IMG/VR virus record: IMGVR_UViG_3300025669_002088
Coordinates: 1-64,000 of that record
Origin: a virus
DNA length: 64,000 nucleotides
Direction: 5' to 3' (one strand)
Translations under genes and position numbers: made by a program
The notes under the pieces: generated by a model
What the model was told of the DNA's origin: nothing
Seen by the model: only the letters and a program-made list of their open reading frames with translations
The model's database searches: none
Shown: piece after piece, positions 1 to 46,805 of the stretch
How positions within the stretch are numbered: position 1 is the stretch's first letter
Layout: every line of letters begins with the position of its first letter

Positions 1-95
1 TGGTCTCTCAGGACTTTGAACTGTAGTTCGGAAGCTACAGCCCACTCCTTGGGGTTGCCTCCGCCGACATGCACAATGGCCTCATCTATCCTCAT
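1..95 (-). CDS. SAM-dependent methyltransferase, N-terminal part only (runs off the window)
   Basis: The minus strand from an ATG at 93-95 encodes MRIDEAIVHVGGG and continues off the left edge. The visible 31 codons are identical at DNA level to the start of the complete class I methyltransferase gene at 45347-45973. It lies downstream of, and on the same strand as, the glycosyltransferase operon at 195-6694, so it would be the operon's next gene. It may be a second copy of the 45347 gene or an alternative context of the same gene; the sequence cannot decide. Confidence 0.6.
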   Translation of the reverse strand, partial: MRIDEAIVHVGGGNPKEWAVASELQFKVLRD

Positions 96-127
96 TTGTT
101 CATCCTTTGTGACTTAGATGTCGCACC
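1..127. repeat. 127-bp exact inverted copy of 45315-45441
   Basis: The reverse complement of bases 1-127 equals 45315-45441 base for base. The match ends at base 128, where this side reads GGGGT next to GCGACATC and the other side has the right end of a miniature IS (ACGGT). The repeat ends exactly at the window edge and has exactly the length of a widely used assembly k-mer. An assembly-graph fork is therefore the likely reason the sequence starts here. Confidence 0.85.
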
Positions 128-170
128 CCAAATCCTTCCCGAAGGGGCGAGGCAGTCACTGTAGGGGTTT

Positions 171-213
171 GGATCCCATTGAGGTTTGATCATCCTAAAC
201 CTCAATGGGATCC
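171..213 (-). terminator. Perfect 17-bp stem hairpin overlapping the stop of the methyltransferase gene
   Basis: The arms at 171-187 and 197-213 (starting GGATCCCATTGAGG) are perfect reverse complements around a 9-nt loop. The TAG stop of the 195-1010 gene lies at the loop/arm edge (195-197), so the last codons form one arm. No T-run follows on the minus strand, so a canonical intrinsic terminator is not proven. A processing or mRNA-stabilising hairpin is equally possible. Confidence 0.5.
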
Positions 214-1010
214 AGATGCGGGTTTTTCAGAAGACTGCTCCCCAATACCGCTGTCAGATCAGAGTCCCGGTGCAGCACTCTCGGTTGGAGAACCTTCTCC
301 CGCCCCATCAGTTTGAGAATCGCTGCCTTATCCCCTGTTACGTTCGGGAGTGGCTCCGGTATAGTCCGGGCGAGCCAGCGAGCGTGGACGGCACCCACGA
401 ACTGACTCTGGGTCAGGTCCAGAATGTGGGATGAGATCGCCCCGTCCCAGGTCTGACCTGGCGCAAGAGTTGGAATCTCCACCAACATCACCTGACTGCG
501 GGCACACACAAAGTCCAGGAGAGCGAGGCAGTCTTCAGTGGAGATGTGTTCTATAGCATGGGAGGATACGAAGATGTCGAATGTTCCCATATCGGACATC
601 TCCCAAAGAGGCTTGTCCGCAGCGATGTTCAGGACCCCTCGTCCGATGGCCTCTGGGCTCGTCTGTTGAACGGCGTAGGGGACCATTTCGTACCCGGTCC
701 ACCCTGCAATGGGGAAGACCCTCATACACTCTGCTGCCAGCCACCCATCATAGGAGCCGAACTCAACGACCCGTGCCTGAGAAAGGTCCATCCCCCAGTC
801 CTTTAGTTGTTGGAAGGACCGGAGGAACCACTGCACGTCAGCGCAGTGCTGCTGTTTGAGTTTGGGGTACAGTGTGTCCCAGATCTCACGGTGCTCAGCA
901 TAGGTGAACTCAGGGTAATGTGCCCGCCAGAGATCCCATATTCGGGACGATGTCAGGAAGTCCTGTGCTCCCTTGATCTTATCGACGATGTTCCGATTTT
1001 CTCCTACCAT
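195..1010 (-). CDS. Class I SAM-dependent methyltransferase
   Basis: This 271-aa protein has a Rossmann-type SAM motif (VVEFGSYDGWLAAE, about residues 83-96), then MGTFDIFVSSHAIEHIS, which is typical of the acidic strand 4 and the following helix in class I methyltransferases. The substrate is not visible. It is the last complete gene of a minus-strand operon with glycosyltransferases, and its start overlaps the upstream gene by 7 nt. A role in modifying a sugar or surface glycan is therefore a reasonable inference. The 3' end is embedded in a perfect hairpin. Confidence 0.75.
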   Translation of the reverse strand: MVGENRNIVDKIKGAQDFLTSSRIWDLWRAHYPEFTYAEHREIWDTLYPKLKQQHCADVQWFLRSFQQLKDWGMDLSQARVVEFGSYDGWLAAECMRVFPIAGWTGYEMVPYAVQQTSPEAIGRGVLNIAADKPLWEMSDMGTFDIFVSSHAIEHISTEDCLALLDFVCARSQVMLVEIPTLAPGQTWDGAISSHILDLTQSQFVGAVHARWLARTIPEPLPNVTGDKAAILKLMGREKVLQPRVLHRDSDLTAVLGSSLLKNPHLDPIEV

Positions 1011-2047
1011 GGTATCAACTCGTCCGGGGTTTCCTCTGCGGGCACCCCGTCTAGAATTTGGGTGAGTCGTTCAGTAAGCAACCCGACCCGTGCCGAACAG
1101 GTGTGGTTTCGTTGGATAAGCCGAGCAGCATTACGAGTGATCCTTCTCCGTTCAGTGTTGTTCTTCAGATAGTATCTTAGCTTGTCCAGGTAATTTAGGT
1201 GGTCAATGACCACCATCGTTTCTCCGTCCACGAACCCGTTGATTGCTGCGTCCTTGGGCAGAGGGGCCATAACGAGGCATCCGCAGGCCATTGACTCATA
1301 GAACTTCTGAACGGGGACATTGATGATGCTCCCACAAAAAAGGATCGTTTTAGACTGTCTCAGACAATCAGCATACCAGTTTTGGTGCTTGTCGAAAACA
1401 GGGATATCGCTGGTCTTCTCTCGGGGCGTTGTGGAAATCAATCTAAAAATGATGTCCTTAGCCTCACGAGACCGGAGATGATTTGTTACAAGGATTCGAA
1501 TGGGATAGAAACGTCCTATGGCTCCGGTAAAAAACACGTCAAAGGGACGCTCTTCCTCCAAGGTTGTGTGGAAAAACCATTCAGGCACACAGAAGGGTAC
1601 CCGGAGGAAAGGGAGATCCGAAGCCGGTTGGAGGATCCGTTTGTAAGGATCCGTCATCCAGGCTGTCATCACGTCCCACCCTTTACCCTTGGTGGGAAAA
1701 GGATTCTGGGGAAAAGGATGCTCATCTATGTTTCTCACCCAGTGCAGCCACTGAGCGAGGAAGGCACTGGAGAGAGTGGGGACCATTTTCACAGCTTGGG
1801 TCATGGCAGGTTCCGCCCAGTCCACGATCATCTCTGAAACAGGCCGAAGGTGTGACAAAGCATGAGGGTCGCTTTGGACACGGAAAACATTCAGGGTTGC
1901 GGGACCTTCATTAAAAGCGACATCAGCGGACTGTCCCTCATCGACTTGTGTCAGATGAGGAGAGCGACCCATTGCTTCGAACAGATGTCGAGAGTGGGAT
2001 CGGTCACTGATGGTTGACACTGGGATGCGTACACGCAGTTTGGTCAT
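1004..2047 (-). CDS. CgeB-like glycosyltransferase (glycosyl transferases group 1 type)
   Basis: The C-terminal half of this 347-aa protein carries KFYESMACGCLVMAPLPKD (about 238-256) and a following YYLKNNTERRRITRNAARL region. That pattern is characteristic of the Glyco_trans_1_2/CgeB family: nucleotide-sugar binding with a conserved E in the ESMACG motif. No membrane segment is visible, so a cytoplasmic enzyme is likely. It overlaps the downstream methyltransferase by 7 nt and follows the ParB-like/methyltransferase fusion by 1 nt, so it is cotranscribed. The sugar donor and acceptor are unknown. Confidence 0.75.
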   Translation of the reverse strand: MTKLRVRIPVSTISDRSHSRHLFEAMGRSPHLTQVDEGQSADVAFNEGPATLNVFRVQSDPHALSHLRPVSEMIVDWAEPAMTQAVKMVPTLSSAFLAQWLHWVRNIDEHPFPQNPFPTKGKGWDVMTAWMTDPYKRILQPASDLPFLRVPFCVPEWFFHTTLEEERPFDVFFTGAIGRFYPIRILVTNHLRSREAKDIIFRLISTTPREKTSDIPVFDKHQNWYADCLRQSKTILFCGSIINVPVQKFYESMACGCLVMAPLPKDAAINGFVDGETMVVIDHLNYLDKLRYYLKNNTERRRITRNAARLIQRNHTCSARVGLLTERLTQILDGVPAEETPDELIPW

Positions 2048-3085: not shown

Positions 3086-6000
3086 CTATCCCTTCCAGTT
3101 TCCAAAGCAACCCTGACACGCCGGGTGAGCGTTCGGCTGGTCCCCCGTTACGGACAGCCGCAGTTGAGCATAGTGGTTGTTCTGCCAAGTACCTCCGAGC
3201 CGTATGTTACCGGAGGACTCAGATGGGGGATCTATCCGTCTGCACCCCGAAATCGCTCCCTTGGCGTCCAACCCCAGAGAGACCATCGGTGACATACATT
3301 TGCCTGGGGCACCCTCTGGCCCCAGGATCACCTCAGGCCACACCTCGACCAATTCCGCCCCCGGACAAGTTTTGGCGTGTGCTATTTCCGCTAACGCTTT
3401 GTCAGATCTGGGGGTTAAGACGTCGTTCAAGAAGTCCTTGTCCAATGGGCCATTGTGAGGCAACACATTGATCAGGTGTACGAATTGAACTCTAAGTTCC
3501 TTTGCCAGAGCTAGGAGGGCAGGGATCCTGTGTGCATTGCTATTCGTTACGACATAGGACACTCCCGAGCGGATCGGGGAGGCACTCATTAATCGGATCC
3601 CCTCTAATACCTTGAGCCAGAAATCGGTGCGGGTCGTGGCCTGGTGCTCCTCCGCCGTGGTGGCATTCAAGGACACGGAAAGGTAGCTGATGGGAAGCCC
3701 CTGAAGCTCCGCAGCATTTTTCCAGAGGAGACTGCCGTTGGTGATGAGCCCGACAACAACCTTATGTGACCCGCAGATGCGAATCAACTCCGGCAACTGT
3801 GGATGCAGCAGCGGTTCCCCGAAACCAGCGATACAGCAGCCCCGGATGGTGGGATACCTGTTCAAAGCTGTCGTCAGGGTTGCGGGGGTGATATCCCCTT
3901 GTTGAGGCACGCCTTCGGGAGTTTGTCGTTTGCAGGGGGTTGTACCGAACACACATTTGAAATTGCACTTGTCTGTGAGGTAAAGGGTCATCTCACGGGG
4001 TCCATGGCTGAACTCCCCTACGTAGGAAGCAAGGCGACGGTAGTCCTGATCTGCAGCCCGGAAGTCCATCTCCTTGTCCTCCGGTTGTTCCCCAGTCAGC
4101 CCCACGGTAGCACCCAAAAACTTGGCCTGGCGAATTTCGTTGCCTGGTTCAGCCAACCACTCCTGCATCAACATCTGAGGGTACTTTGACAACCAACCCA
4201 TCCAGGATAACTTCCGATGTTTCTGCATCAGTCGCTTCCAACGGACGAAAGCCATCTCGGGTGTCTGGGATGCGAGATGCGTTCCAAAGATCTCGGCAGT
4301 CCGGGTGTATTCCTCGGTCCACACCCCATTAGTTTCTTTGCGGACTCTACCAGGGGAGTTGTCGGCCACGATCTCGTGGCCGTTTGTACGCAGTAGCTCA
4401 TTCTGGCCCATCTCACAGGAGAGGGCTTCTTTGTACGGGTACTGTTTACAGATAGCGTGATTGTATATTTTGACACCCTGAATGGGTCGGTGAACGTCAT
4501 CGTCCCACAACCACCCAACATACTGAGCAGCTTTCGTTGTCGTGATCTTTTCATAAAGGCGTCTGATAGCAGAGGGATCTAATAGCATATCAGCATCGAT
4601 CTGAACGTAATAGGGTGTCTGACAACGATCCATCATCTGCTGGAAGGCCCGCCACATAGGGGCTACATTACGAATATCCTCCCGAAGAAATAGGGAATCC
4701 TGGTTGTCTAAGTGTTTGTGACAGGTCGGTGTTGATGGTTCTCCGCTAGAGATAACAAATACGGTCACAAAGTTTTGCAGATCCTGTTTGCCATTTGCCA
4801 TTTCTGATTCCTTTGCCGGGTGTGCAGGAGGATTTACCCTAATAGGGTGTACGGGAGGGTTTACCAGGGCAGGAGTGGAAAGCGACAAAGCTGGGGCTGT
4901 GACCGCCGCTGGGACGGGTTCCTGTGGCATCATGGGGAAGCCTAACCCTTGCAGAATGTCAGTAGCCTCCGCCTTGTACTGGAGGGACAACCTGTCAAGC
5001 AGTTCCCTTTGGGCATGAAGCAGTTTAATCCTGTCCGCCGGATGATCAAGAAGATGCTGGGTAAGCCTTCGGATTTCATCACTAGCAATGGCTGGTCGGA
5101 CACAACATAGTTCCTGTGCCCATTTTGGCAGATCCTTGACCCAACGAATAGTATCACACAAAACTACGGGGGTGCCTGCGTAGATGGCCTCCATCACGAG
5201 GTAAGGCCAGGTGTCCGACAGGCTCGTGTGGATCATCACGTCCATAGAGGACACGAGTTTGACGGCTGCTCCACGGGAAAGTACACCGTATGTTTTCCAA
5301 CTCTGAGCGGCAACGAGAAGAGCCTGAACGGCAGCCCCCCGCAGTTCTAATGTTGATGACGTTGACAGGTGTAAGTGTCCACTGGTCTGGGTTGCTCCTG
5401 CAACGCATGCCAAAATATTTTTAGCATTCGAAGGGTAATGTCCGCAAAACCCCACCATCACAGAGCCTGGCTTTTTTGGTGCCCTCCCTAATGACTGAAG
5501 TCGTTGGGAGTCCCATACGGGGACCATTCGGGTAGCTCCTACAGGAAGAACATCTCGGGTTTCAAGCCACAGGAACCGGCCCTGTCCACTGGCTGACATC
5601 CGTAGAGCTTCGCTTAATGTTCCTCCCTCACCCATCAGATCAGAGCCAGCAAAGCCACTGTGCCACAGAATGTGTGCAAGTTTGGGGTAGTAGGCACAGA
5701 GTTTTCGTGCTCCTGTCCACCAGCCATGGAACAAAACGGGTTGACCCGAACGGAGTGCCTCATCCGCTTCTGCACGAGAGACTGCTTTGAACCCGATGCT
5801 CAAAAGACCGTCAGTGAAGGCTTGTTGTCCGGCCCCTCCGGGGACACATGTGAGCGGGACGTTGCCTTGGGGTACGAGGATGGGGGGTGGTCTGGGTGTG
5901 ATCACTTGGGGAGTAGCCGAAATCTTTTTGGGTGCTTCTTTAGGGGGGTTTGGAGCTACCCACGTGCCGTCCAAAACACCTAGCCCCCGGCGAAGGAGTT

Positions 6001-6694
6001 CCTTAGCTTCAGACTCCGCCCATGTTGCTCTGTTTCCTTTACCTGTCACTATAAAGCGACCCCGGACCATTGAGCGTTCTGACTCCAGCACAGGCCGGTC
6101 CCAGATGTTTTCCCCATGCTGAAGGCATACGGGCATCCCTTCGAGCAACGAAGTGATATCCTTGTGCGCTGGTTTCCGGGGGAGCCTGCGGATTCTATAT
6201 GCAGCCTTGGCATCCTTGCCATTCGGGATTGGGGGCCACCCTCGGATTTCCCTCAGGAGCTTCGTGGTGTAGGACATAGAGGTGCCCACCAAGCCATCCT
6301 TGTCCCCCTTCCAGAAGGTTACACAATCGTGGATCATGTCATAGAAGTAACAGTTTCGAGTGCCCGACCATTCATAACCCTCCAAGAAGGCTTGGATAGA
6401 AGCCGCAGCCCTGTTCGGAGGTTGAAGGTCATCATCATCCGCCAGCATCACCAGTTCAGCGTCGGTCCTGGCCACCAAGGCGTTCAGCTTCACCGTGACC
6501 TTGGGATCGGCAACAACCTGATAGGGAACATCTGCTTCAGCGGCCACCTCTTTGCCAGGGTCCTCAGCCTCTCCCGCCACCAAGATCTCAACATCCCAAC
6601 CGTCAGGAATGCCCTGCTGTTGCTGGAGAGAGTCCAGGCACGCTCGGAGAAGCTGCGGCCTGTGATGTGTAGCGACTAGGAAAGCGGCTTTCAT
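3086..6694 (-). CDS. Giant four-module protein: GT2 glycosyltransferase, GT4-like, second GT-A-like module, radical SAM
   Basis: The ATG at 6692-6694 follows a TAAGGGA ribosome-binding site; 1202 aa. Module 1 (about 1-240) starts MKAAFLVATHHRPQLLRACL and has LADDDD, the GT-A metal motif. Module 2 (about 280-590) ends in a GT4-like DTWPYLVMEAIYAGTPVVL. Module 3 (about 630-880) has VQIDADMLLD, another GT-A DxD motif. Module 4 (about 920-1202) starts LYLTDKCNFKCVFGTTPC with a GFGEP motif and a C-terminal Cys cluster, as in radical SAM/SPASM enzymes. The cluster spacing CX3CX6C is not the classical CX3CX2C, so activity is uncertain. It heads the operon and probably builds or edits a glycan. Confidence 0.75.
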   Translation of the reverse strand: MKAAFLVATHHRPQLLRACLDSLQQQQGIPDGWDVEILVAGEAEDPGKEVAAEADVPYQVVADPKVTVKLNALVARTDAELVMLADDDDLQPPNRAAASIQAFLEGYEWSGTRNCYFYDMIHDCVTFWKGDKDGLVGTSMSYTTKLLREIRGWPPIPNGKDAKAAYRIRRLPRKPAHKDITSLLEGMPVCLQHGENIWDRPVLESERSMVRGRFIVTGKGNRATWAESEAKELLRRGLGVLDGTWVAPNPPKEAPKKISATPQVITPRPPPILVPQGNVPLTCVPGGAGQQAFTDGLLSIGFKAVSRAEADEALRSGQPVLFHGWWTGARKLCAYYPKLAHILWHSGFAGSDLMGEGGTLSEALRMSASGQGRFLWLETRDVLPVGATRMVPVWDSQRLQSLGRAPKKPGSVMVGFCGHYPSNAKNILACVAGATQTSGHLHLSTSSTLELRGAAVQALLVAAQSWKTYGVLSRGAAVKLVSSMDVMIHTSLSDTWPYLVMEAIYAGTPVVLCDTIRWVKDLPKWAQELCCVRPAIASDEIRRLTQHLLDHPADRIKLLHAQRELLDRLSLQYKAEATDILQGLGFPMMPQEPVPAAVTAPALSLSTPALVNPPVHPIRVNPPAHPAKESEMANGKQDLQNFVTVFVISSGEPSTPTCHKHLDNQDSLFLREDIRNVAPMWRAFQQMMDRCQTPYYVQIDADMLLDPSAIRRLYEKITTTKAAQYVGWLWDDDVHRPIQGVKIYNHAICKQYPYKEALSCEMGQNELLRTNGHEIVADNSPGRVRKETNGVWTEEYTRTAEIFGTHLASQTPEMAFVRWKRLMQKHRKLSWMGWLSKYPQMLMQEWLAEPGNEIRQAKFLGATVGLTGEQPEDKEMDFRAADQDYRRLASYVGEFSHGPREMTLYLTDKCNFKCVFGTTPCKRQTPEGVPQQGDITPATLTTALNRYPTIRGCCIAGFGEPLLHPQLPELIRICGSHKVVVGLITNGSLLWKNAAELQGLPISYLSVSLNATTAEEHQATTRTDFWLKVLEGIRLMSASPIRSGVSYVVTNSNAHRIPALLALAKELRVQFVHLINVLPHNGPLDKDFLNDVLTPRSDKALAEIAHAKTCPGAELVEVWPEVILGPEGAPGKCMSPMVSLGLDAKGAISGCRRIDPPSESSGNIRLGGTWQNNHYAQLRLSVTGDQPNAHPACQGCFGNWKG

Positions 6695-6723
6695 GTCCCT
6701 TACCTTTGGTAGAGGAACTATAG

Positions 6724-7994: not shown

Positions 7995-8065
7995 TTAGCC
8001 ACCTTAAGTTCTCAATCCCATGGTTGCAGTTTACTAAAGAAAAACAAAAAACACAAGCCTTCTTA

Positions 8066-8695
8066 TCAAGGTAAGCTATACCACCCAGAGGAGTTCTCAG
8101 CACCTATGAATATGGCGGAGAGTTCCACGGCACGCCTGATGCGGTCAATAGTGTCCTGGATGAGAGCCTTCGCTTTGTCAGACGGTCCTGAAGCGGCCCT
8201 GAGAAGGTACGCCGGATGGTAAATCGGCACGATAGGGATCCCACCAGCCTCATAGATCAGATCCGTTACCTTGAGCAGCGAACCCATCGCACCCCACTGC
8301 TGGGACAATTTACTGGTGGCATGCCTTCCCAACGTGATCAGGACTCTCGGACCGATGGCGGCGATCTGACGTTGGAGGAAGGGGTAGCAAACAGCAACCT
8401 CGTCAGGCTGGGGGTCACGGTTCCCCGGAGGCCGACATTTGAGCACGTTGGCGATGTAACACTCATCCCGTGTCACCCCCGCCCTTGTCAGGAGAACGTC
8501 CAGGATGCCCCCCGCACGGCCCACAAAGGGCACTCCCTGCTCATCCTCGTGTTGACCGGGTGCCTCTCCTACGATCATGATGCGGGCGTTGGGGTCACCG
8601 GCTCCGAAGACGACATTATGTCGATCTTTTTGGAGCCTGCATCGGGGGCAGTTCACCAGGGCTTTCTGGATGTGTTTCAGGGTCTCTTTCGACAT
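8066..8695 (-). CDS. Family 4 (4Fe-4S) uracil-DNA glycosylase
   Basis: This enzyme removes uracil from DNA and starts base excision repair. Of 209 aa, residues about 12-18 give the NCPRC cluster pair. GEAPGQHEDEQGVPFVGRAG (about 44-63) is the uracil-pocket motif. NVLKCRPPGNRDPQP carries another cluster Cys, and IYHPAYLLR the C-terminal HP motif. The start at 8693-8695 is preceded by AAGGAGAA. In phages this gene protects DNA against deaminated cytosine or host counter-defences. It lies alone between the tnpB remnant and hypothetical genes. Confidence 0.9.
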   Translation of the reverse strand: MSKETLKHIQKALVNCPRCRLQKDRHNVVFGAGDPNARIMIVGEAPGQHEDEQGVPFVGRAGGILDVLLTRAGVTRDECYIANVLKCRPPGNRDPQPDEVAVCYPFLQRQIAAIGPRVLITLGRHATSKLSQQWGAMGSLLKVTDLIYEAGGIPIVPIYHPAYLLRAASGPSDKAKALIQDTIDRIRRAVELSAIFIGAENSSGWYSLP

Positions 8696-26427: not shown

Positions 26428-26777
26428 ACTTGACAGTACCCCTCAAACTTACTAAAGTCTAATTGTTCCTGCTTGAAACAGGAGGCTGTTATGGCAGGAA
26501 GGCTTATGCTGATTGGGTAGGAGGTTCTGGTGTGCCCAGATGTTCTGGGGGTGAACACATTGGTACTAACGATCACCCACGAGGCGTAAAACGAGTGCTG
26601 AGAGAGCGATTCCGTCTTCGACGGACCAGTTCCTTGGGATTCGGACGGAAGGAGCAACCGTCATCCGAGCCCTTACCGTTGGGCCGGAAGTTTACTACCG
26701 AGGTACTTGGGTCACCAAGATTCGGCACAGCTTCAAACTTGATGCCTGTTACATTCTAGCAGGTTTTAAGGAACGGT
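26428..26777 (+). mobile_element. 350-bp miniature IS605-type element (PATE-like) with omega-RNA region
   Basis: The left end has the hairpin GTACTTGACAGTACC and then CTGCTTGAAACAGG. It then jumps to the last part of tnpB (AGGCTTATGCTGATTGGG onwards) and continues to the right end TTTTAAGGAACGGT. It is thus an internal deletion of the 34223-35733 element that keeps both ends and the 3' omega-RNA-type region. The left flank is GGGGT and the right flank AGGGTTTG. It has no transposase and must move in trans. Confidence 0.85.
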
Positions 26778-34222: not shown

Positions 34223-35733
34223 CCTTGACAGTACCCAATTTAGTTGCTAAAATCTAACTATTCCTGCTTGAAACAAGAAGCAGAGGTCAGTAAATGAAGT
34301 GTCGCATCTTCCGACTTCACAAGGACACCAACCGATCTAAGATCGATAAGTTGGAAGCCCTGCACAAAGCATATGTCAAGTACGTCCGTATCTGCGTACA
34401 GACGATGCTCAACCAGCAAACCCTCAACCTCCCGAAAGCCGCCAAACAAACGTTCTTCCCACGGGCTACTGATCTTACGTCTCAAATCGAAAAGATCGCA
34501 CGAGACCATGCAATTCAAATCGTAAGTGCTTGGGCCAAAGCTACTTACGCTCGTAAATTAAAGCCGACTATCACCAATCTCAAGCATGACGGTACCCTCA
34601 CCGATCAGGACGCCAAAGCACTCTGTGTCATCGGGTTGAAGTCCATCAGCAAGCCATGGGAGTTCATCACCCAAGACCATCTCGATGCTTATCACACCCT
34701 GTTGGACACCTACGGAGGCAACAAGCCTATCGTAAGGGACAACCTACCCATGAGGTTGTCAGAAATGACGGCTCGATTGGAAGACACAACTAAAGCTCCT
34801 TTGGGGGGTTTTTGGCTGAGGGTGTCCTCGTTGGAAGCTCGGAAATCCGTCTGGTTGCCTCTTGTTGGGAATCCTTACATCCAGCAGGCTGATCAGGTTA
34901 ACAAGGGGATATCAGCCCGTAAAACCAAGAAGGGGTTCTGGCGCTTTGAGGCAGTTAGCAAGGCTGAGTGGACCATTCCTGAAGCACAGGAAGATTGGCC
35001 TAAGTTGGGTGTGGATGTGGGCTTGAACGTGCTTGCAGCTACTTCAGATGGCGTGACCTATGGTGAACACGTCAAACCTAAGTTCGACAAGCTCTACGCT
35101 CGTGTCAGAAATCTCCGAGCAAACCGCCAACGACAGGACCTGAAGGACAACAGCCCAAAGTTGGATCACCTTGAAAGCAAGCTGAGTGGGTTGATCAAGA
35201 CAGAAACGGGTCGTGTAGTAAACACCCTTATCGTCCGCCATCCTGAGACAGTGTTCGTGGTCGAGGATCTCGACCTTCGAGGTTGCCGAGGCCAAAAGCG
35301 GTTTGCTTACAGGGCGTTACAGACCAACTTGGAGAGAAAAGCCCCAACAGAGAAGGTGAACCCGGCTTATACGTCGCAGGAGTGCCCCTCCTGCGGTTAC
35401 ATTCATCGAGGCAACCGAAGTTCAATAAGGTTCCATTGCCGCTCGTGCGGTAGGAAGGCTCACGCTGATTGGGTGGGAAGTTCTGGTGTGCTCAGACGTT
35501 CTGAAGACGAACACATCAAAGCTGGCGATCATCCAAGAGGTGTAAAACGAGTGCTAAGAGAGCGATTCCGTGTTAAACGGACCAGTTCCTTGGGATTCGG
35601 GCGGAAGGAGCAACCGTCATTCGAGCCCTTACCGTTGGGCCAGAGGCTTACTACCGTTGGATCAGAGTCATTTGGCAGCGGCACAGCTTCAAACTTGATG
35701 CCTGTTACATTCCAGCAGGTTTTAAGGAACGGT
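34223..35733 (+). mobile_element. IS605-type element with tnpB and no tnpA (1511 bp)
   Basis: The left end starts CCTTGACAGTACCC, preceded by GGGGT. The right end is TTTTAAGGAACGGT, followed by ACCAGTG. Both ends match the two 350-bp elements in this window. There is no target duplication and the cut follows GGGT, as expected of single-strand IS200/IS605 transposition. The 3' part of tnpB plus the right end is conserved in the minis and probably encodes the omega-RNA. With no tnpA here, movement needs a transposase elsewhere. Confidence 0.88.
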
Positions 35734-36503: not shown

Positions 36504-36525
36504 CTGTGTGTATAGGGGGGGACAG

Positions 36526-38886
36526 ATGCCCAACTGGAACCGAATAGCCCACAGCGCCAGCAAAGTAACCGGCAAGGTCCAAACGATGGTGGAACATCTG
36601 TTGGGGGTTGAAGCGCTGACTCTCCGTTTCCTGGGCACCCACTTCCCACCCCAGCACGTCAGAGAGGTTTCTTTCGCCAGCCGGGGGCATGACATCGGCA
36701 AATACAGTCCCCTGTTCCCTGATGTACTGAACGGGGTAGCCCGAGGGGTGCTGGATCATTCCTCACCTGGAGCCTGGGTTGCTTACGACCGAGGATCCCT
36801 CCTCGCTTCCCTGTTGATCGCCGGACACCATAGGGGTCTGCCGGATTTCTCACGCGTCTATTTGGGGTGTGTCCTACGCCCCTCTGCACAGCCGATGGGT
36901 AGCGGGACTCATCCTAACCCCGGTGTCTTCCATGTCTATCCGGGGCCAGCGAAAGACTTGTTGGTTCCCCTACGTGAGGATGGCATCGAGCTTCCTGAAA
37001 TCAATATAAATGATGATGAGACCTTCTTTTCTTTTTCTGAACTGGTGAAAGGCTGGCAGTTGTCCATTGCCAAGGGCTTGGATGTCCGAATGGCCTTTTC
37101 TGCGCTCGTTGACGCCGACTTCCTGGACACCGCCGAGCACTTCAAACCAGGGCGCACCTGTCCCAACCCCCCGTTGGACGCCGGTCTCGCCCTTGACGTT
37201 TTGAACAAATACATCGACGGCCTCAGTGCCAAGAGCAAACGCAGCGATGGTGCTTCCCCTGTGGTGCAACAGGAACGGGACCGTCTACGACAGGACTGCC
37301 TCAGAGCCGCCCAGGGGCCTCCAGGACGCATTTTGACCTGTACAGCCCCCACCGGTGTAGGCAAAACTCTAGCGCTGGTCTCGTTCGCCCTGGCGCACTG
37401 TCAGGCCCACCAACTTAAACGGGTGATCATCGCTGTACCCTACAAAAGCATCATTCAACAGACGGCGAAAACCCTGAAGGAGCTTTTCAAGGACCGGGCC
37501 TTCGGTCCCCACTTTGTGTTGGAGCATCACACGGACGCCACGCAGTGGGTCGAAGAGGAGGATCTCCAACAGGATGGTAGATCAAATGAGATTGACCGAC
37601 GAGGGCTCACTGAAAACTGGGATGCACCAATCATCCTCACCACGAACGTTCAACTATTGGAGTCCTTGTTTTCCAATCGGCCAGGGAGATGCCGGAAACT
37701 CCACAACATCCAGGACTGCGTGATCATTTTTGATGAGGGCCAGTCTTTGCCCAGCCACCTTATGCTCCCCACAATAGCAATGCTCGACCGACTCAGCCGT
37801 CAGTATCAGGTCACGGTGGTGTCTGCCACGGCCACCCAGCCTGCCTTCCAGAGCATCCTGCCTCAGGTAGAAACACTCGTGGGGGAACCGCTCCAGCCCT
37901 ACGAGGAGATTGCCTCCGCCCCCGTAGCCTCGGCCAAGGCGATGGTCCGCAACAAGTTTCACTGGCCGCACAACGACGACGAGAGGTGGACCTGGGCGCA
38001 GTTGGCTGACCGGGTGTGTTCGGAAAGGATGTCAAACCTCGTGCTTCTCAACAGGAAGGACCATGCGGAAGCGGCCTGGAGGGAAATACAGACACGGTGG
38101 GGGGCGGATCGAGCTATCTATTTGACTTCCAACCTGTGTCCAGCCCACCGGAAGGGGCTACTCAAAGAGGTGGTTCGTCGGTTGAAGACCGTTGGGGACT
38201 ACTTCGTTCTGGCAGCTACTCCTTGTGTGAACTCAGGGACGGACTTCGACTTCAACAGGGGCTTCCCGGCCATGGGACCGTTGGATGGGACGGCACAAAC
38301 CGCTGGGCGGGTAAACCGGGAGGGCTTGCGGGTACTAGGGGACATCTTCGTTTTCCGCCCGGACGTTGAATACAAGGACATGTTCCCGCATGACGAGTGG
38401 TTCCAGGCTGCTGCCCGGATCACGGAGCGGTTCCTCCGGCGCTACGGACAACGTCTCGACCCGACGAACCCGGAAATCTTGACCCAGTACTATGAGGCCC
38501 TCTATCGGGAAGCAGGGCTAGATCACCCGGCCACCAAAAAGATCATCGAGGCGTACCAGGAGGGTTCCTTCGAGAAGGTCAGTCGACGCTACCGGGTCAT
38601 TCCCGACAAAGGGGTCCAGGTCGTCGTTCCCTACCTGGAAGGAGGGTGTGGGGAGCAGTACAGGAAACTCAACAAGGAGCGGCCCACCCGGAAAAGCTTC
38701 CGGATGTGGATGAACCGAGCGGCCCTGCTATCGGTCTCTGTTCTGTCACTGAAGAAGGATCACCCCCTCTGGCTCAGCCTTGACCCCGTCACGCTGAAAA
38801 GGAAGGACGGCTCCATCACCGAAACGGGCTGGTACATCTGCACTGACCCAAGAGCCTACCACCCGGAACTTGGGCTGGTGCAATGA
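36526..38886 (+). CDS. cas3: Cas3, CRISPR type I helicase-nuclease (HD plus DExH)
   Basis: Cas3 is recruited by Cascade and shreds target DNA. The 786-aa protein has an N-terminal HD domain: VEHLL, SRGHDIGKYSPLF, LDHSSPGA and IAGHHRGLPDF, all metal ligands visible. The SF2 helicase has Walker A APTGVGKTLAL (about 275), DEGQSLP (motif II), SATAT (motif III) and GRVNREG (motif VI). The ATG at 36526 follows AGGGGGGGACAG. Nothing looks inactivated. It heads cas3-cas5-cas8c-cas7. Confidence 0.95.
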   Translation: MPNWNRIAHSASKVTGKVQTMVEHLLGVEALTLRFLGTHFPPQHVREVSFASRGHDIGKYSPLFPDVLNGVARGVLDHSSPGAWVAYDRGSLLASLLIAGHHRGLPDFSRVYLGCVLRPSAQPMGSGTHPNPGVFHVYPGPAKDLLVPLREDGIELPEININDDETFFSFSELVKGWQLSIAKGLDVRMAFSALVDADFLDTAEHFKPGRTCPNPPLDAGLALDVLNKYIDGLSAKSKRSDGASPVVQQERDRLRQDCLRAAQGPPGRILTCTAPTGVGKTLALVSFALAHCQAHQLKRVIIAVPYKSIIQQTAKTLKELFKDRAFGPHFVLEHHTDATQWVEEEDLQQDGRSNEIDRRGLTENWDAPIILTTNVQLLESLFSNRPGRCRKLHNIQDCVIIFDEGQSLPSHLMLPTIAMLDRLSRQYQVTVVSATATQPAFQSILPQVETLVGEPLQPYEEIASAPVASAKAMVRNKFHWPHNDDERWTWAQLADRVCSERMSNLVLLNRKDHAEAAWREIQTRWGADRAIYLTSNLCPAHRKGLLKEVVRRLKTVGDYFVLAATPCVNSGTDFDFNRGFPAMGPLDGTAQTAGRVNREGLRVLGDIFVFRPDVEYKDMFPHDEWFQAAARITERFLRRYGQRLDPTNPEILTQYYEALYREAGLDHPATKKIIEAYQEGSFEKVSRRYRVIPDKGVQVVVPYLEGGCGEQYRKLNKERPTRKSFRMWMNRAALLSVSVLSLKKDHPLWLSLDPVTLKRKDGSITETGWYICTDPRAYHPELGLVQ

Positions 38887-38980
38887 AAAAGTCTGCGGAC
38901 AGGGGTTCCTTTTGCGACTTCATTGAGTAGTAAGAAGTGCCGCCGAAGAAACTCGGCTGGATAAACAGACGGAGGGACAG

Positions 38981-39652
38981 ATGAAAAAAGGTATGCTGCA
39001 CGGGTTGGAAGTGTGGGGGGACAATGCCTGCTTCTCCCGCCCAGAGGTGACGGAGCGGACCACCTACCCCATCCCAACCCACTCAGCCTGTCGGGGGATC
39101 TTCGACGCTATCTACTGGAAAAGGTCCGCCAACTTCTACTGGCAGATCGTCGGGGTAGAGGTTGTGAACCCGATCCGGTACATGGGGATCATGCGGAACG
39201 AGATGAAAGACAAGGTCACCCGCCGCACTCTTCAGGTTGATCTTACAACCCAGAAGCACCGGACCCAAAAGCACACCAGGACTCTCCTGGACCCCCGGTA
39301 CCGCATCTTCGCACGGGCGGTCTGCCGGAATCCTGATGGGAACACCAACGCCATCGACGCCCAATTCCGTCGTCGGGCGGAGAGGGGCCAATGTTTCCAC
39401 CAGCCCTTCTTAGGTTGCAAGGAGTTTATGGCCAACTTCCAGCTTGTCCCGGTGGATGAGCATGATCCATCACAGGGACTCGCAGACCTTCAGGTGGACG
39501 TGGGGGTGATGGTCTACGACACCTTCAATCTGCTGGTGCCCGATGGAGATCCTTCGGTCAGCGTGTTCCACGCACAGATCAAGGATGGGGCCGTGGCCTA
39601 CCCGGAGTTCACTGATAGTGCCGCCGTGTTCCGGCCAGGGGGTGCAGCATGA
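38981..39652 (+). CDS. cas5: Cas5d (type I-C), pre-crRNA processing endonuclease
   Basis: In type I-C, Cas5 replaces Cas6 and cuts the repeat hairpin to leave the 5' handle. The 223-aa protein starts MKKGMLHGLEVWGDNACFSR and has PIPTHSACRGIFDAIYWK, a Cas5d hallmark. The TQKHRTQKHT segment and the Tyr in DAIYWK match the Tyr/Lys/His set used for cleavage in Cas5d. Start preceded by GGAGGGACAG. It overlaps cas8c by ATGA. Confidence 0.95.
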   Translation: MKKGMLHGLEVWGDNACFSRPEVTERTTYPIPTHSACRGIFDAIYWKRSANFYWQIVGVEVVNPIRYMGIMRNEMKDKVTRRTLQVDLTTQKHRTQKHTRTLLDPRYRIFARAVCRNPDGNTNAIDAQFRRRAERGQCFHQPFLGCKEFMANFQLVPVDEHDPSQGLADLQVDVGVMVYDTFNLLVPDGDPSVSVFHAQIKDGAVAYPEFTDSAAVFRPGGAA

Positions 39653-41481
39653 GTGGTATCGGACAGAGCCTCCTCAACTATGCCGCACACTATATGCCCC
39701 AGCAGGCTCCGGTGGGGTACGAGTACCTGACCGTCGTGGAAACCGTAGTGTGCCTGACCCCGGACGGGAAGTACCAGGACTGTCACCTCAGGGACACCAA
39801 GACGGCCTCCCCGATCCTGACACCTCGGGTGCCCTCCAATTTGCTCAGGGCCACGCCCCCCAAGACTCACTTCTTCATCGGGTATGTCCCCCAGGTGTTC
39901 CCTCTCCTCGTGGCCGAACCGCACGACAACACCAAGAACGAGGTGAAGAGGGGCCTCTTCCTGGAGCAGATCAGAACGGTCATCAAGGAGGTTCCCTGCA
40001 CTCGGAAGTACCTGACCCCCATCCAGACCTTCCTGGAGGACGACGAGCAGGTCGCCCTTGTGGTTCAGGCTCTGACGAAGATGGAGGCAGACCTCAAGCG
40101 GGCTGTGATCTTCCAGACCGAGGGGAAGAAACTCGGCATCCCGTTCCAGGACAAGAAGGAATGGCGGGAGTGGTGGGCGACCTACCTTTCAGGAGCGGAC
40201 AAAAAGAAGAAGACCAGCGATAAGACGTTCCGCTGCGTCGTCACCGGGGACGAGATCACGAACCCCTGCCGCATCCATCCTGACGGCATTGCCTTCGGCA
40301 CAACGAAGACGAAGCTGGTTGCCGCCAAGCAGACCTCCAGTCACCACTATGGCCAGGAGTCTGGCCTCGTTGCTCCGATGTCAGACCAGACGGCGAGCAC
40401 AATGACCCAGGCTCTGGTTCATGCCGCCCAAAACGCCGGGACGGCCTTTGGGGATCTTCGAATCCTTGTGTGGGCTTGTTCCAGGGGAGAAACCCTTACG
40501 GGGAAGGCTGGACTGCTGGCGGGCCAAGGGCCGGTTCTTGAAGGGGGCGAGTGGACCCAGATCCTGTCCGACGTTATGTCCGACCTCTTGAACTCGGGAT
40601 TGACGGATGGGGAACTCCGGGGTGCCACCCGGAAGGTGAAGGAATACCTGGACACGGGCACCGGACCGGGAGGTGTCCTAGACATGGACTGCACCTTGGG
40701 CATCGTTTCTAGCAACGGTCCCCGGTTGGCTGTCCGGCACTGGGAGACTGGACCCCTGTCCGTCCTGTTCAAGAACATCTATCGATGGTATCAGGATATG
40801 ACCATCAGCAACAACCGCAATGACACGGGGATCGCCCGCCTTTCTGCACTCTGGCAGATCCTTTCCGCTGTCAACGGCCCAAGGGGCAAAGCTTCCGAAC
40901 TGGAGCGTGAGATGCTCGTTCAGGTAGCCCTGCGGGGCCAGTCGGTCCCAATGAGCATTGTCAAAAAGGCCCTGGTGCAGTTCCGGTCACAGTTGCACCT
41001 GTCCATCAAACCGTCAACCAACATGGGGATCGCTCCGGCATTGCCGGGAATCCTCAAAACCTTCATCAACAGGAGAGGGAACACCATGTGTGAAGCAGGA
41101 TTGAACAAGGACCACCCGAGTGTGGCGTACCAGTGTGGGCGGTTGTTGTCCGTCCTGTCCGAACTCCAGAGCCTCGCCATCGGTGGGAGGAACCCCCCGA
41201 TGGCCCTGGCTGCTCAGTTCTCGTCCGCAACGATGCAGAACCCGGCCCGTGCGCTGGCCCGGTTACTGCTCCGTTCCGAGAAGCACGTCAACAAGCTCGT
41301 CCGACAGGGAAAGGGATGGGCGGATCACAAACGGCAGGAGATCGTCGACCGCCTGCCCACAGACCTTCCGACCCGCCTCGGCATCGAGGATCAAGCTTTG
41401 TTTGCCATGGGGTTGCTCCACCAGCGCTCGTCCTGGAAGAAGCAGGACAAGCCCGCAGGGACACCCCCGATTAAGGCATAG
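39649..41481 (+). CDS. cas8c: Cas8c (Csd1), large subunit of type I-C Cascade
   Basis: 610 aa, normal for Csd1. The N-terminus has MSGIGQSLLNYAAHYMP and YEYLTVVETVVCLTPDG. The family-typical FRCVVTGDEITNPCRIHPDG (about 198-217) and the ARALARLLLRSEKHV region near the C-terminus are present. It recognises the PAM and holds the complex. In I-C an internal start can yield Cas11c; an in-frame ATG near 41087 (MCEAGLNKDHPSVAY), preceded by GGAGAGGGAACACC, is a good candidate. Confidence 0.95.
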   Translation: MSGIGQSLLNYAAHYMPQQAPVGYEYLTVVETVVCLTPDGKYQDCHLRDTKTASPILTPRVPSNLLRATPPKTHFFIGYVPQVFPLLVAEPHDNTKNEVKRGLFLEQIRTVIKEVPCTRKYLTPIQTFLEDDEQVALVVQALTKMEADLKRAVIFQTEGKKLGIPFQDKKEWREWWATYLSGADKKKKTSDKTFRCVVTGDEITNPCRIHPDGIAFGTTKTKLVAAKQTSSHHYGQESGLVAPMSDQTASTMTQALVHAAQNAGTAFGDLRILVWACSRGETLTGKAGLLAGQGPVLEGGEWTQILSDVMSDLLNSGLTDGELRGATRKVKEYLDTGTGPGGVLDMDCTLGIVSSNGPRLAVRHWETGPLSVLFKNIYRWYQDMTISNNRNDTGIARLSALWQILSAVNGPRGKASELEREMLVQVALRGQSVPMSIVKKALVQFRSQLHLSIKPSTNMGIAPALPGILKTFINRRGNTMCEAGLNKDHPSVAYQCGRLLSVLSELQSLAIGGRNPPMALAAQFSSATMQNPARALARLLLRSEKHVNKLVRQGKGWADHKRQEIVDRLPTDLPTRLGIEDQALFAMGLLHQRSSWKKQDKPAGTPPIKA

Positions 41482-41541
41482 TCTCTAATGGCCTAAGGTG
41501 GGCCTTAGAGTTGGATTAGGCATAAAGTGAGGAGAAGTATC

Positions 41542-42552
41542 ATGAAGGATCTTTTGATGTGGCTGAAGAGTGGGACGGCGGCAATCGGATACAGGTTCGA
41601 GATCTTGTTCCTGTTCGATTGTCTGATGGGGAATCCCAACGGTGACCCCGACTTCGGCAACCTGCCCCGGACCATCCCGGACACGGGACACGGGTTCGTC
41701 ACCGACGTCGCCATCAAGCGGCGTCTCCGCAACTACGTGAGTCTCCGCAAGGCAGGCAAGACCCCGTACCAGATTTTGCTGATGATGAACACCTGTACCA
41801 ACAGGCTCATCGCCAAGGCCCACGAGGACTCCCACGGGACCGTCCCGGCGAAGGCTACCAAGCAGGAGGAGCGGGCGGCGGGTGACCGGATGTGCCAGGA
41901 CTATTGGGATGTCCGCACCTTCGGCGGTGTTCTCAACACAGGTGCCAAGGCGGGCCAGATTCGTGGACCCGTCCAGGTGGTGAGTGCCCGGTCCCTCGAT
42001 CCGGTATCCATCCAGGAGATCACCATCACCCGCATGACCGACACCAAGGGCTCCCCTGATCCCAAGAAGGTCAAGACCCCCAAGGATCAGGGTTTCTCCT
42101 CCGCCCAGTGGCAGGAGTATGAGGACGGGGCCGAGGCGGCGGCTCTCCGCACGATGGGAACCAAGGCGATCATCCCCTACGGTCTCTTCGCTGCCAACAT
42201 CACGGTGAGCGCTTTCGTGGCGGAACAGACGGGCTTCTCGGCGGAGGATCTGGCCCTGATGATCGAGGGTCTGGAAAACATGTACGACCATGATCGGACC
42301 TCCAGCAAGGGTTTGATGACCTGTCGGGGCATCTACATCTTCAAGCACGTCGGGACGGCGGACGACCCCGAAGAGCGGGCACAGCAGGCCAAGCTCGGGT
42401 GCGCCCCGGCCCATAAGCTGCTGGACAACGGACGCATCGTGACTGTGGTCAAAAAGGACGGGGTAGAGGCCCCGATGTCCTTCGACGACTACACTGTCAC
42501 CGTGGACGAGTCCAAGCTCCCGGAAGGTGTCGAGTTCCGGGCCATCCAGTAA
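41542..42552 (+). CDS. cas7: Cas7c (Csd2), crRNA-backbone subunit of type I-C Cascade
   Basis: The ATG at 41542 follows GAGGAGAAGTATC; 336 aa. It has YRFEILFLFDCLMGNPNGDP, then NTGAKAGQIRGPVQVVSARS (RAMP-type G-rich region) and MYDHDRTSSKGLM (about 250), all typical of Csd2. Six copies wrap the crRNA. The next element downstream is the array leader; cas4, cas1 and cas2, which normally follow in I-C, are absent. Confidence 0.95.
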   Translation: MKDLLMWLKSGTAAIGYRFEILFLFDCLMGNPNGDPDFGNLPRTIPDTGHGFVTDVAIKRRLRNYVSLRKAGKTPYQILLMMNTCTNRLIAKAHEDSHGTVPAKATKQEERAAGDRMCQDYWDVRTFGGVLNTGAKAGQIRGPVQVVSARSLDPVSIQEITITRMTDTKGSPDPKKVKTPKDQGFSSAQWQEYEDGAEAAALRTMGTKAIIPYGLFAANITVSAFVAEQTGFSAEDLALMIEGLENMYDHDRTSSKGLMTCRGIYIFKHVGTADDPEERAQQAKLGCAPAHKLLDNGRIVTVVKKDGVEAPMSFDDYTVTVDESKLPEGVEFRAIQ

Positions 42553-42748: not shown

Positions 42749-43933
42749 GTCGCATCCTCTAACAAAGGATGCGTGGATTGAAACAGAGGTTCCGCCGGAG
42801 ACCTATAACGTCAGGCTGGTCGTCGCATCCTCTAACAAAGGATGCGTGGATTGAAACGTTACTGCCCGCATGACACCCCGGATGAGATCACCAGTCGCAT
42901 CCTCTAACAAAGGATGCGTGGATTGAAACACTGTGGACCTGGCGGGGAAGAAGCCGACCTATGGTGGTGTCGCATCCTCTAACAAAGGATGCGTGGATTG
43001 AAACTTTCAAACAGCGACCCAGTCGAGTGCGACTTGGTGGGTGTCGCATCCTCTAACAAAGGATGCGTGGATTGAAACAAGTGCCTCGCCGTCAAGGATC
43101 CAGAGGGGAAGCTGAAGTCGCATCCTCTAACAAAGGATGCGTGGATTGAAACAGGCCCACAGAACGGCTCCCACGGCCTGGGGACGCCGTGTCGCATCCT
43201 CTAACAAAGGATGCGTGGATTGAAACGCTCAGAGGACTGCTCGACGGGACAAGACGGTCTTCCTCGTCGCATCCTCTAACAAAGGATGCGTGGATTGAAA
43301 CTCGAAGTTGGGCGAAATCCAGGAATGACGGTCACAAGTCGCATCCTCTAACAAAGGATGCGTGGATTGAAACAATCCGATGACACTTCCCTTTCCTGTC
43401 CGCCCTTGGAGCGTCGCATCCTCTAACAAAGGGTGCGTGGATTGAAACGAGATCCCCCTTGCGACTCCCGCCCTGAAGGCGCTGGCGAAGTCGCATCCTC
43501 TAACAAAGGGTGCGTGGATTGAAACGTAAGCGAACTCCACCCCTGGTCCGTGGGTGACCGGTCGCATCCTCTAACAAAGGGTGCGTGGATTGAAACGCAG
43601 TGAGCCAGCGCCCCACGAGCCATGCCTGCCTTACTGTCGCATCCTCTGAAAAAAGGATGCGTGGATTGAAACTAAATCCGATTTACGGGGAACTGGCTGG
43701 TCGGCTCACGTCGCATCCTCTAACAAGGGGTGCGTGGATTGAAACGCTGATTCGGACTGATCCCTGAGAAGGCGCAACCCTGCCGTCGTACCATCTAACA
43801 AGGGGATGCGTGGATTGAAACGAAACCGCAGCGAGGCAGAAGGGGTCACTCCCTCACGGGTGTGTGGATTGAAACATTAGGGTAGTAAGTGTAGACAACC
43901 TCGTCGTTCCCATGAGGGGGCGTGGATTGAAAC
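42749..43933 (+). CRISPR. Type I-C CRISPR array, 17 repeats and 16 spacers
   Basis: The repeat is 36 nt, beginning GTCGCATCCTCTAACAAAGG and ending ATGCGTGGATTGAAAC, with a GCATCC/GGATGC hairpin and the I-C-type 3' tag ATTGAAAC. Repeats start at 42749, 42822, 42894, 42969, 43043, 43117, 43191, 43266, 43338, 43413, 43490, 43561, 43636, 43710, 43785, about 43843 and 43903. Spacers 1-14 are 35-41 nt; the last two are shorter (21-27 nt). Repeats 1-9 are identical. From repeat 10 variants appear (GGGTGC), and the last five are degenerate, marking the leader-distal old end. No spacer matched this window by eye. Confidence 0.98.
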
Positions 43934-44945: not shown

Positions 44946-44967
44946 GTCGTATCCTTTGACAAAGGGT
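44946..44967 (+). repeat. Half of a degenerate CRISPR repeat cut by the miniature IS
   Basis: GTCGTATCCTTTGACAAAGG matches the 5' part of the array repeat (18 of 22 positions over 44946-44967). It stops at GGGT, exactly where the 350-bp element begins. The expected other half (GCGTGGATTGAAAC) is not on the far side of the element. Confidence 0.75.
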
Positions 44968-45317
44968 ACTTGACAGTGCCCTTCATACCTGCTAAAGTCT
45001 AACTGTTCCTGCTTGAAACAGGGAGCTGTTGCGGCAGGAAAGCTCATGCTGATTGGGTAGGAGGTTCTGGTGTGCCCAGATGTTCTGGGGACGAACGCAT
45101 CAAAACTAACGATCATCCGAGAGGCATAAAACGAGTGCTAAGAGAGCGATTCCGTGTTAAACGGACCAGTTCCTTGGGATTCGGACGGAAGGAGCAACCG
45201 TCATTCGAGCCCTTACCGTTGGGCCGGAAGTTTACTACCGAGGTACTTGGGACACCAAGATTCGGCACAGCTTCAAACTTGATGCCTGTTACATTTTAGC
45301 AGGTTTTAAGGAACGGT
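44968..45317 (+). mobile_element. 350-bp miniature IS605-type element (PATE-like), second copy
   Basis: Same length, ends and internal deletion junction as the element at 26428-26777, with scattered base changes. The left flank is a CRISPR half repeat ending GGGT. The right flank, GCGACATC, is the methyltransferase leader. At the window start the same GCGACATC is preceded directly by GGGGT, as expected of an empty site. The two flanks therefore do not belong together, suggesting recombination through element copies. Confidence 0.85.
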
Positions 45318-45346
45318 GCGACATCTAAGTCACAAAGGATGAACAA

Positions 45347-45973
45347 ATGAGGATAGATGAGGCCATTGTGCATGTCGGCGGAGGCAACCCCAAGGAGTGG
45401 GCTGTAGCTTCCGAACTACAGTTCAAAGTCCTGAGAGACCACGGACTGACACCTTCGTCTTCGGTTTTGGAGGTGGGTGCCGGATGCCTCGGCCTTGCCC
45501 GTTTGCTGGTTCCCTACCTGAATGAGGGGGGGTACACCGGAATCGAGCCGAACGAGGACGTAACGGGCGCTGTGGCCCCCCTGGACCCGGATCGGGACAC
45601 CATCCTGCTGACCTGTTCCGATTTCGACTCATCAGAGGCAGAGCGGACCTTTGATATCGTGTTTGCACACTCCGTACTGACGCACATTGGGGCACCCCAG
45701 TTACCTGAGTTCCTCCACAACATCCGGCCTCATTTGCGGGAAGGTAGCCTCATCCTGGCATCCTTACGCCTTGGGGAGAAGGACACCGCTACCGATACTT
45801 GGACGTATCCCAGGGCAGTCGAGTTCAGCCTTGAAACGCTGGAAGCGACGTCTAAGCAGGAGGGCTACACCGTTGAACTGCGGAGTGCTATCCGTGACAA
45901 GTGCGAAGCAGCGCTGCCTCGGATGTTCCACGACTGGGTCCTCTTCCGTCCGGTGGCACCCGCATCGGAGTAG
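45347..45973 (+). CDS. Class I SAM-dependent methyltransferase
   Basis: 208 aa. SAM motif VLEVGAGCLGLARLL (about 40-54), acidic IEPNEDV, and TFDIVFAHSVLTHIGAPQLP, all typical of small-molecule class I methyltransferases. The start follows AAAGGATGAAC. It precedes the UDP-sugar dehydrogenase, so a role in making a methylated sugar is plausible. Its first 95 bases are duplicated in inverse orientation at the window start, next to the glycosyltransferase operon. Confidence 0.8.
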   Translation: MRIDEAIVHVGGGNPKEWAVASELQFKVLRDHGLTPSSSVLEVGAGCLGLARLLVPYLNEGGYTGIEPNEDVTGAVAPLDPDRDTILLTCSDFDSSEAERTFDIVFAHSVLTHIGAPQLPEFLHNIRPHLREGSLILASLRLGEKDTATDTWTYPRAVEFSLETLEATSKQEGYTVELRSAIRDKCEAALPRMFHDWVLFRPVAPASE

Positions 45974-45992
45974 GAGAGCAAAGGGGGGATCC

Positions 45993-46805
45993 ATGTCACA
46001 GCTTCTGGGTGGACTCATCGGAAACGGTTACGTGGGGGGTGCTGTCCACGCTTTCCTACGAAGCAAAGGCTATATCGTCCGGGTACACGACACCAACCCG
46101 GACAGATCTACCTACGCCATGGGGACGGTCAAAGAGTGTCCTTTGATCTTCGTCTGTGTCCCAACCCCGACTGGGGAACAAGGTCAGGATCTGAAACACG
46201 TCTACGAAGCCTTCCGCCACCTCCAGGGGACGAGCAGCATCGTGGTGCTGAAGAGCACTGTGTTGCCGGGGACGTGTTTCAAGCTGGCCTCCCAGTTTGA
46301 TCTTCCGAACCTCGTGTTCAGCCCTGAGTTCCTGACCGCCCGGACTGCGGACCAGGACTTTGCGTCACCGACCAGCATAATCCTCGGCACTGAAGGCCCA
46401 CAGCCGCCCACTGTGGGCCTTTTCCAGGAACTGTGGCCGGACGTACCGATCCTCCAGATGACGTGGGAGGAGGCCGAACTGGTGAAGTACGCCCGTAACA
46501 CGTTCTACACTACCAAGGTGGCGTGGTGGAACGAGATGTATGCCCTGTGCCAGAAACTCGGCGTGACGTTTGACAGGGTGAAGCAGGGCGCTCTGGCGGG
46601 AGGTTGGATCAACCCTATGCACTGTGACGTGCCTGGACCGGACGGGAAGCTCGGTTTCGGGGGTGCCTGCCTACCCAAAGACTCAGAAGCCCTGGTGGAG
46701 TTCGCCTTCGCCAACGGTGTCCAACTGTCCATCCTAGAACAGGCACTGAAAAGCAACAAAAGGCACCGGCTAGGGGATATCAGTAATCCCACCCAGCAAA
46801 CCTGA
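45993..46805 (+). CDS. Short UDP-glucose/GDP-mannose dehydrogenase-like protein
   Basis: These enzymes oxidise nucleotide sugars to uronic acids with NAD+. The 270-aa protein has GLIGNGYVGGAV (Rossmann), CVPTPTGEQG, VLKSTVLPGT, FSPEFLTA and GFGGACLPKDSEA with the catalytic Cys. It ends shortly after, so the C-terminal UDP-binding domain is missing compared with about 400-450 aa in the family. Whether it is active alone is open. It follows the methyltransferase by 19 nt. Start preceded by AAGGGGGGATCC. Confidence 0.8.
   Translation: MSQLLGGLIGNGYVGGAVHAFLRSKGYIVRVHDTNPDRSTYAMGTVKECPLIFVCVPTPTGEQGQDLKHVYEAFRHLQGTSSIVVLKSTVLPGTCFKLASQFDLPNLVFSPEFLTARTADQDFASPTSIILGTEGPQPPTVGLFQELWPDVPILQMTWEEAELVKYARNTFYTTKVAWWNEMYALCQKLGVTFDRVKQGALAGGWINPMHCDVPGPDGKLGFGGACLPKDSEALVEFAFANGVQLSILEQALKSNKRHRLGDISNPTQQT

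Follow-up and report, generated by a model that had tools for sequence, protein, structure and literature searches.

Organisation of the locus

The window analysed here (the whole stretch of DNA, the first 64 kb of the 125,741-bp virus record IMGVR_UViG_3300025669_002088) begins at the end of a glycosyltransferase operon and contains a type I-C CRISPR (clustered regularly interspaced short palindromic repeats)-Cas locus, a 350-bp miniature element of the IS607 type and, directly behind that element, a methyltransferase gene and a dehydrogenase reading frame (Table 1). Its first 127 bases recur in inverted orientation at the start of the methyltransferase gene's side. In what follows T denotes the methyltransferase side, S-left the end of the glycosyltransferase operon, and P the flank that follows the element in a second, 188-kb record. 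We conclude that the 127-bp copy is most likely an overlap of a de Bruijn graph with k = 127, left at a fork within the population, and not a genomic inverted repeat.

Table 1. Features of the window, with the comparison or profile match on which each assignment rests. ORF, open reading frame; SAM, S-adenosylmethionine; IS, insertion sequence.
Positions	Strand	Feature	Basis
1..127	-	Contig-end 127-mer; T begins with its reverse complement	Exact match and contig-end analysis
128..2047	-	S-left end: ORF 195-1010 (weak Methyltransf_23) and glycosyltransferase ORF 1004-2047, pointing to the methyltransferase in the real order	Profile matches; joined to T in IMGVR_UViG_3300022890_001078
26428..26777	+	Second miniature element, sister of the 45-kb copy (91%)	Copy and end comparison
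34223..35733	+	TnpB-bearing IS copy with the same ends, ORF 34294-35802	End comparison, profile match
36508..42552	+	Type I-C interference genes cas3, cas5, cas8c, cas7	Profile matches
42749..43745	+	CRISPR array, 36-nt repeats, leader end beside cas7; spacer 1 at 42785-42821 differs in three records	Repeat comparison
44946..44967	+	22-nt first part of a degenerate CRISPR repeat, with GGGT at its end; remaining 14 nt after the element in IMGVR_UViG_3300023257_000008	Repeat comparison
44968..45317	+	Miniature IS607-type element, 350 bp, left end ACTTGACAG, right end GGAACGGT; conserved RNA fold predicted in 45030-45317	End comparison, fold tests
45315..45441	+	Internal 127-mer copy, modelled as a graph vertex with two upstream neighbours; GGT common to element end and empty site	Exact match, junction comparison, toy graph
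45347..45973	+	SAM-dependent methyltransferase gene (Methyltransf_12)	Profile match
45960..46805	+	UDP-glucose/GDP-mannose dehydrogenase reading frame	Profile match

The 127-bp copy and the contig ends

As the initial annotation of this sequence had described, the reverse complement of 45315-45441 is identical to positions 1-127 without a mismatch, and the identity breaks at base 128 and at 45314. It is the only exact inverted pair of at least 80 bp in the 125,741-bp record, which is far beyond chance. A second exact pair links the 127 bases that close the record (125615-125741) to 119119-119245, again breaking after 127, and besides these two pairs the longest exact repeat in the record measures 114 bp. 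The presence at both contig ends of an exact repeat of the same odd length, 127 bp, indicates a de Bruijn assembler with k = 127.

The proposal made at the outset that 127 bp represents an assembly-graph overlap is thus supported by both contig ends, and also by the contig ends of length maxK that metaSPAdes and MEGAHIT are reported to leave where repeats fragment an assembly (PMC10914622). Like the ends seen here, these overlaps, which are the basis of COBRA, are identical over exactly the largest k, and they are ascribed to repeats or to within-population variation; the COBRA paper also examines the latter, and the metaSPAdes runs that it lists reach a k of 127 (PMC10914622). Unlike those ends, the sequence shared here lies inside the very contig whose end it matches, and in inverted orientation.

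An origin from the terminal repeats of a linear phage was rejected, as the matching copy lies inside the record and the record's right end pairs with another internal place, and a longer, diverged inverted repeat was rejected because nothing extends past 127. Both inverted copies are visible in this contig only, and the left copy breaks off at the contig end. At the right contig end, 125615-125741 and 119119-119245 lie within a repeated stretch with relatives at 86313-86718.

The glycosyltransferase operon is followed by the methyltransferase in a second record

When the methyltransferase and glycosyltransferase proteins were used as queries, a single record was returned for either, the same 54,627-bp IMGVR_UViG_3300022890_001078. 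This contig runs from position 57116 of our record down to 45315 and continues from 128 up to 42788, with no difference over 11,802 and 42,661 bases, respectively. In one scan each of viral_contigs, the start of T matched one record, with S-left upstream, and the end of S-left matched one record, with T following. The empty site at T reads TTTGGGGT directly followed by GCGACATC.

Since an independent contig reads through the meeting point of S-left and T without difference, extending 42.7 kb into the S-left side and 11.8 kb into the T side, the window-start context postulated in the initial annotation does exist, and on this sequence comparison S-left followed by T is the true gene order. The same contig supplies an independent alternative neighbour for the shared 127-mer. 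The methyltransferase found behind the CRISPR array at about 45.3 kb of the record should not be taken as part of an operon there, or as one arm of an inverted repeat.

No consensus terminator or promoter was found between the glycosyltransferase and methyltransferase genes; a near-perfect inverted repeat without a run of thymines lies between the operon end and the methyltransferase, at window positions 170-214. Further along, window positions 3086-6730 hold a 1214-aa ORF that fuses glycosyltransferase-like and radical SAM parts.

The junction at 45317 and a split CRISPR repeat

Scanning with the left portion of the miniature element identified one record, the 188,175-bp IMGVR_UViG_3300023257_000008, which contains 42821-45317 at 100% identity over 2,497 bp. 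The common block comprises the array from its second repeat on, a 299-aa gene and the miniature element. After the element the 188-kb record goes on with ATGTGGATTGAAAC, the start of P, and not with the methyltransferase. The 22-nt half repeat that precedes the element, joined to the 14 nt that lie past the element in the 188-kb record, forms a 36-nt CRISPR repeat with six mismatches to the array consensus. Because the second repeat half follows the element there, the element sits inside a CRISPR repeat. The window has no second half repeat after the element, and T stands in its place. A scan of viral_contigs with the start of P also matched a single record, with P after the element, and scans with the T start, the S-left end and the P start gave no records beyond the 54-kb and 188-kb contigs, in a set from which some records very close to that of the window may be missing. 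The 299-aa gene itself (44017-44916) lies between degenerate distal CRISPR repeats and has no Pfam or NCBIfam match.

These comparisons agree with the initial description of the 45-kb side as a CRISPR half repeat plus a miniature IS. Both of the contexts that had been postulated for the methyltransferase start are seen, but they are not equal alternatives: the block of array, gene and element continues into the second repeat half in the 188-kb contig, which argues that the junction of element and methyltransferase at 45317 is, as judged from these sequences, the derived one. The suggested inverted duplication flanking the 45-kb segment did not emerge from these comparisons. Such a duplication would mean that a single molecule has T at either side of the segment, as could arise if intermolecular recombination had produced an inverted dimer. 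We regard it as distinctly improbable, since P and not T follows the element in the 188-kb record and T occurs once in the 54-kb record, beside S-left, although one of the graph models described below would produce the observed contig start from it directly.

The breakpoint at 45317 coincides exactly with the right end of the element and lies exactly after the GGGT of the empty site. As GGGT covers only 0.58% of positions per strand, its occurrence at T is unlikely to be due to luck. The element-T junction is present in this record only, as it would be if it had arisen as a random chimera (a library or amplification artefact) or a misjoin and existed in no genome, but a break placed so exactly at both the element end and the GGGT makes that origin very unlikely.

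A miniature element of the IS607 type

Element ends were compared among the copies in this record and in the 188-kb record. All eight distinct left ends consist of GGGT followed by ACTTGACAG, or once by CCTTGACAG, and all ten distinct right ends read GGAACGGT, or once GGAATGGT, and end in GGT. With GGT counted once, the empty site closes both in the CRISPR repeat and at T, such that a constant overlap is found at both ends without target duplication. Full copies of the element carry TnpB, with a TNB domain above the Pfam cut-off and, in three full copies, scores of 88-92 bits to NF040570, below its cut-off of 100. In two copies of the 188-kb record TnpB is adjoined by an IS607-family TnpA serine recombinase (102557-103186 and 154071-154826; 199.5 and 195.4 bits to the IS607 transposase model NF033518, cut-off 110). 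The IS200/IS605 family, assumed at first from TnpB, was dropped as the parent when the Y1 transposase (PF01797) was found in none of the three records, all incomplete, and the IS607 TnpA was identified.

Members of the IS607 family, which encode a tnpA serine recombinase and tnpB, are proposed to recombine via a circle and a GG overlap (PMC4058570), and the motifs reported for IS607 TnpB are G-rich (AGGAG/GAGGG; PMC11061315). The elements described here share with this family a TnpA above the model cut-off and TnpB in full copies, insertion after a G-rich motif and the lack of a target duplication (PMC4058570; PMC11061315). They differ in that the insertion site is GGGT rather than AGGAG/GAGGG (PMC11061315), and in that 44968-45317 is, unlike full elements, a 350-bp derivative without tnpA or tnpB. 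The element ends, the GGGT/GGT pattern and the presence of an IS607 TnpA together mark the junction at 45317 as one of the kind that an IS607 transposase makes. A second TnpB-type IS family is represented at window positions 6720-8081 by a copy whose reading frame is broken in two; a longer relative of 423 aa lies at 75966-77237.

Assembly-graph models and alternative explanations

The 127-bp ends and their identity, the two contexts of each end across three records and the exact element ends are all observed. The explanation that in our judgement probably accounts for them as a whole is a fork at k = 127 at which T has two upstream neighbours in the population, with no genomic inverted repeat. 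One neighbour would be S-left, ending in the ancestral empty site (TTTGGGGT followed by GCGAC), and the other the right end of the 350-bp IS607-derived miniature element (GGAACGGT followed by GCGAC), such that a small jumping element would precede the methyltransferase gene in some genomes and be absent there in others. Piecing the two other contigs together gives a putative ancestral order of P, the element (right end first), the split CRISPR repeat, the 299-aa gene, the array, the cas genes, S-left and T. In the present contig T would then stand joined to the flank on the left of the element within the CRISPR repeat, a link that would stem either from an assembler crossing between two identical copies of the element or from a true 45-kb inversion carried by some genomes. 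Both an element copy or recombination event at T and a mixture within the population are what we infer from these contexts.

A toy graph with k = 127 was run on the real flanks. The ancestral form alone gave no fork, whereas an element insertion at T, recombination between inverted elements or a direct exchange between the element right end and GGGT each caused S-left to fork at GGGGT. Several points weigh against this explanation. In every modelled mixture with a T insertion or an inversion the S-left unitig stops at GGGGT, while the observed contig runs 127 bp into T, as it would where S-left meets T alone, and in this respect the model argues against a simple mixture. No scanned record joins S-left to the element or to P, and the use of metaSPAdes for this record is itself something we infer. 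The contig start was given directly by only two models, M4 (T on both sides, no P), in which an inverted duplication yields it as a plain unitig end with no choice by the assembler, and M5 (P also on the array side). As the mixtures fork at GGGGT, the observed start needs either the assembler to have picked T or T to be truly duplicated. Of these readings we favour a mixed population that includes an element junction at T, in which either the assembler threaded the junction with the array-side copy or the segment is truly inverted; we rate an inverted T duplication lower.

A real 45-kb inversion could alone be responsible, with the segment carrying the glycosyltransferases, cas genes and array flipping. 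It might proceed by recombination between two inverted miniature elements, one in the CRISPR repeat and one at T, or by an IS607 serine recombinase exchanging the element right end directly with the GGGT before T. The two sites are inverted in the pieced-together order, recombination between them would yield exactly the junction at 45317, IS607 TnpA genes are present in the 188-kb contig, and IS607 has been proposed to recombine at a matching overlap dinucleotide, GG (PMC4058570). An inversion also predicts S-left joined to P or to the element and P, whereas the S-left scan returned only the record in which it meets T, and the toy mixture does not yield the observed start without a choice by the assembler. 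On balance we consider an inversion alone somewhat unlikely. Still less likely is its more specific form, in which the serine recombinase uses the right end of the gene-less element and a plain GGGT to flip the CRISPR-Cas and sugar-transfer segment and the population holds both orientations.

A predicted RNA fold in the element right end

A common fold was predicted for nine aligned right ends (45030-45317 and eight relatives, from miniature and full elements). With the fold held fixed, 98.7% of cells pair, and changes on both sides of a pair are seen in 33 cells, compared with 13.1 in shuffles (none of 500 reached 33) and no more than 9 in slid controls. Because the alignment used for these tests also served to derive the fold, and the TnpB reading frame of full copies covers most of the stretch, the covariation is support and not proof. 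Rfam gave no match up to E = 1 over 44900-45400, and across the whole window it returned only a tRNA at the gathering cut-off. These results suggest that the miniature element may keep only its ends and a guide-RNA-like part. For an element at T, the predicted guide would be one that matches the empty site there. In plasmids TnpB is reported to act as a drive on copies that lack the element (PMC11870625), and by analogy a similar drive might operate in this phage. IS607 miniature elements with a conserved RNA fold can confuse, and perhaps rearrange, huge-phage genomes.

The CRISPR-Cas locus and its newest spacers

The locus has the form of a phage type I-C system without adaptation genes, cas3-cas5-cas8c-cas7, as tested by cas1 (PF01867), which was found in none of the three records, all incomplete. 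As far as each record reaches, the array is the same in all three from spacer 2 on, and spacer 1 is different in each (window 42785-42821; IMGVR_UViG_3300022890_001078, 54460-54502; IMGVR_UViG_3300023257_000008, 188140-188175). The 54-kb record is otherwise without differences from ours, and it ends 125 bases into the part of the array common to all, close to what is expected for a fork at spacer 1. Spacer 1 of our record had no match in viral_contigs.

Three different newest spacers in front of an otherwise identical array suggest that this phage array, for which cas1 was not found, has taken up spacers recently, and the comparison exposes all three in one such array. This would agree with the suggestion that a phage array lacking cas1 uses the genes of its host (PMC7416419). 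Solitary degenerate CRISPR repeats are also present far from the array, at window positions 25103-25138 and at reverse-complement position 22435 of the 188-kb record (seven and six mismatches). They could be relics; RNA-based anti-CRISPR-like units are a further candidate.

A larger phage genome

The records encode DNA polymerase, helicases, RtcB and the type I-C cas genes, with RIIA and an NAD-dependent ligase in the 188-kb part. When 147 crude ORFs of our record were compared with 275 of the 188-kb record, the matches consisted of mobile-element ORFs, the shared block, one distant HNH endonuclease and one 35-aa match. The tetranucleotide profiles of the two large records correlate at 0.990, compared with 0.980 and 0.979 between the halves of each. 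Two different phages with a common block were rejected on these grounds, and the near absence of common genes together with near-identical profiles indicates that the two records probably belong to a single genome of at least about 311 kb, for which the comparison gives a likely gene order. A scan with the DNA polymerase found no further relatives.

We take the two sample numbers to be those of samples from Ace Lake, Antarctica, and we think that this phage is probably the huge phage published from that lake. The published genome (cluster CL24) is circular, about 528 kb long and carries a type I-C CRISPR-Cas system without cas1, cas2 and cas4, from Joint Genome Institute metaSPAdes assemblies (PMC7416419). 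Type I-C is common to both, and cas1 is absent there and found in 0 of 3 records here; this is a likeness of description and not proof of identity (PMC7416419). Very long helicase and DNA polymerase ORFs (L005 8298-12479, L004 7634-11989), in which the matches are broken by endonuclease-like stretches, possibly contain inteins.
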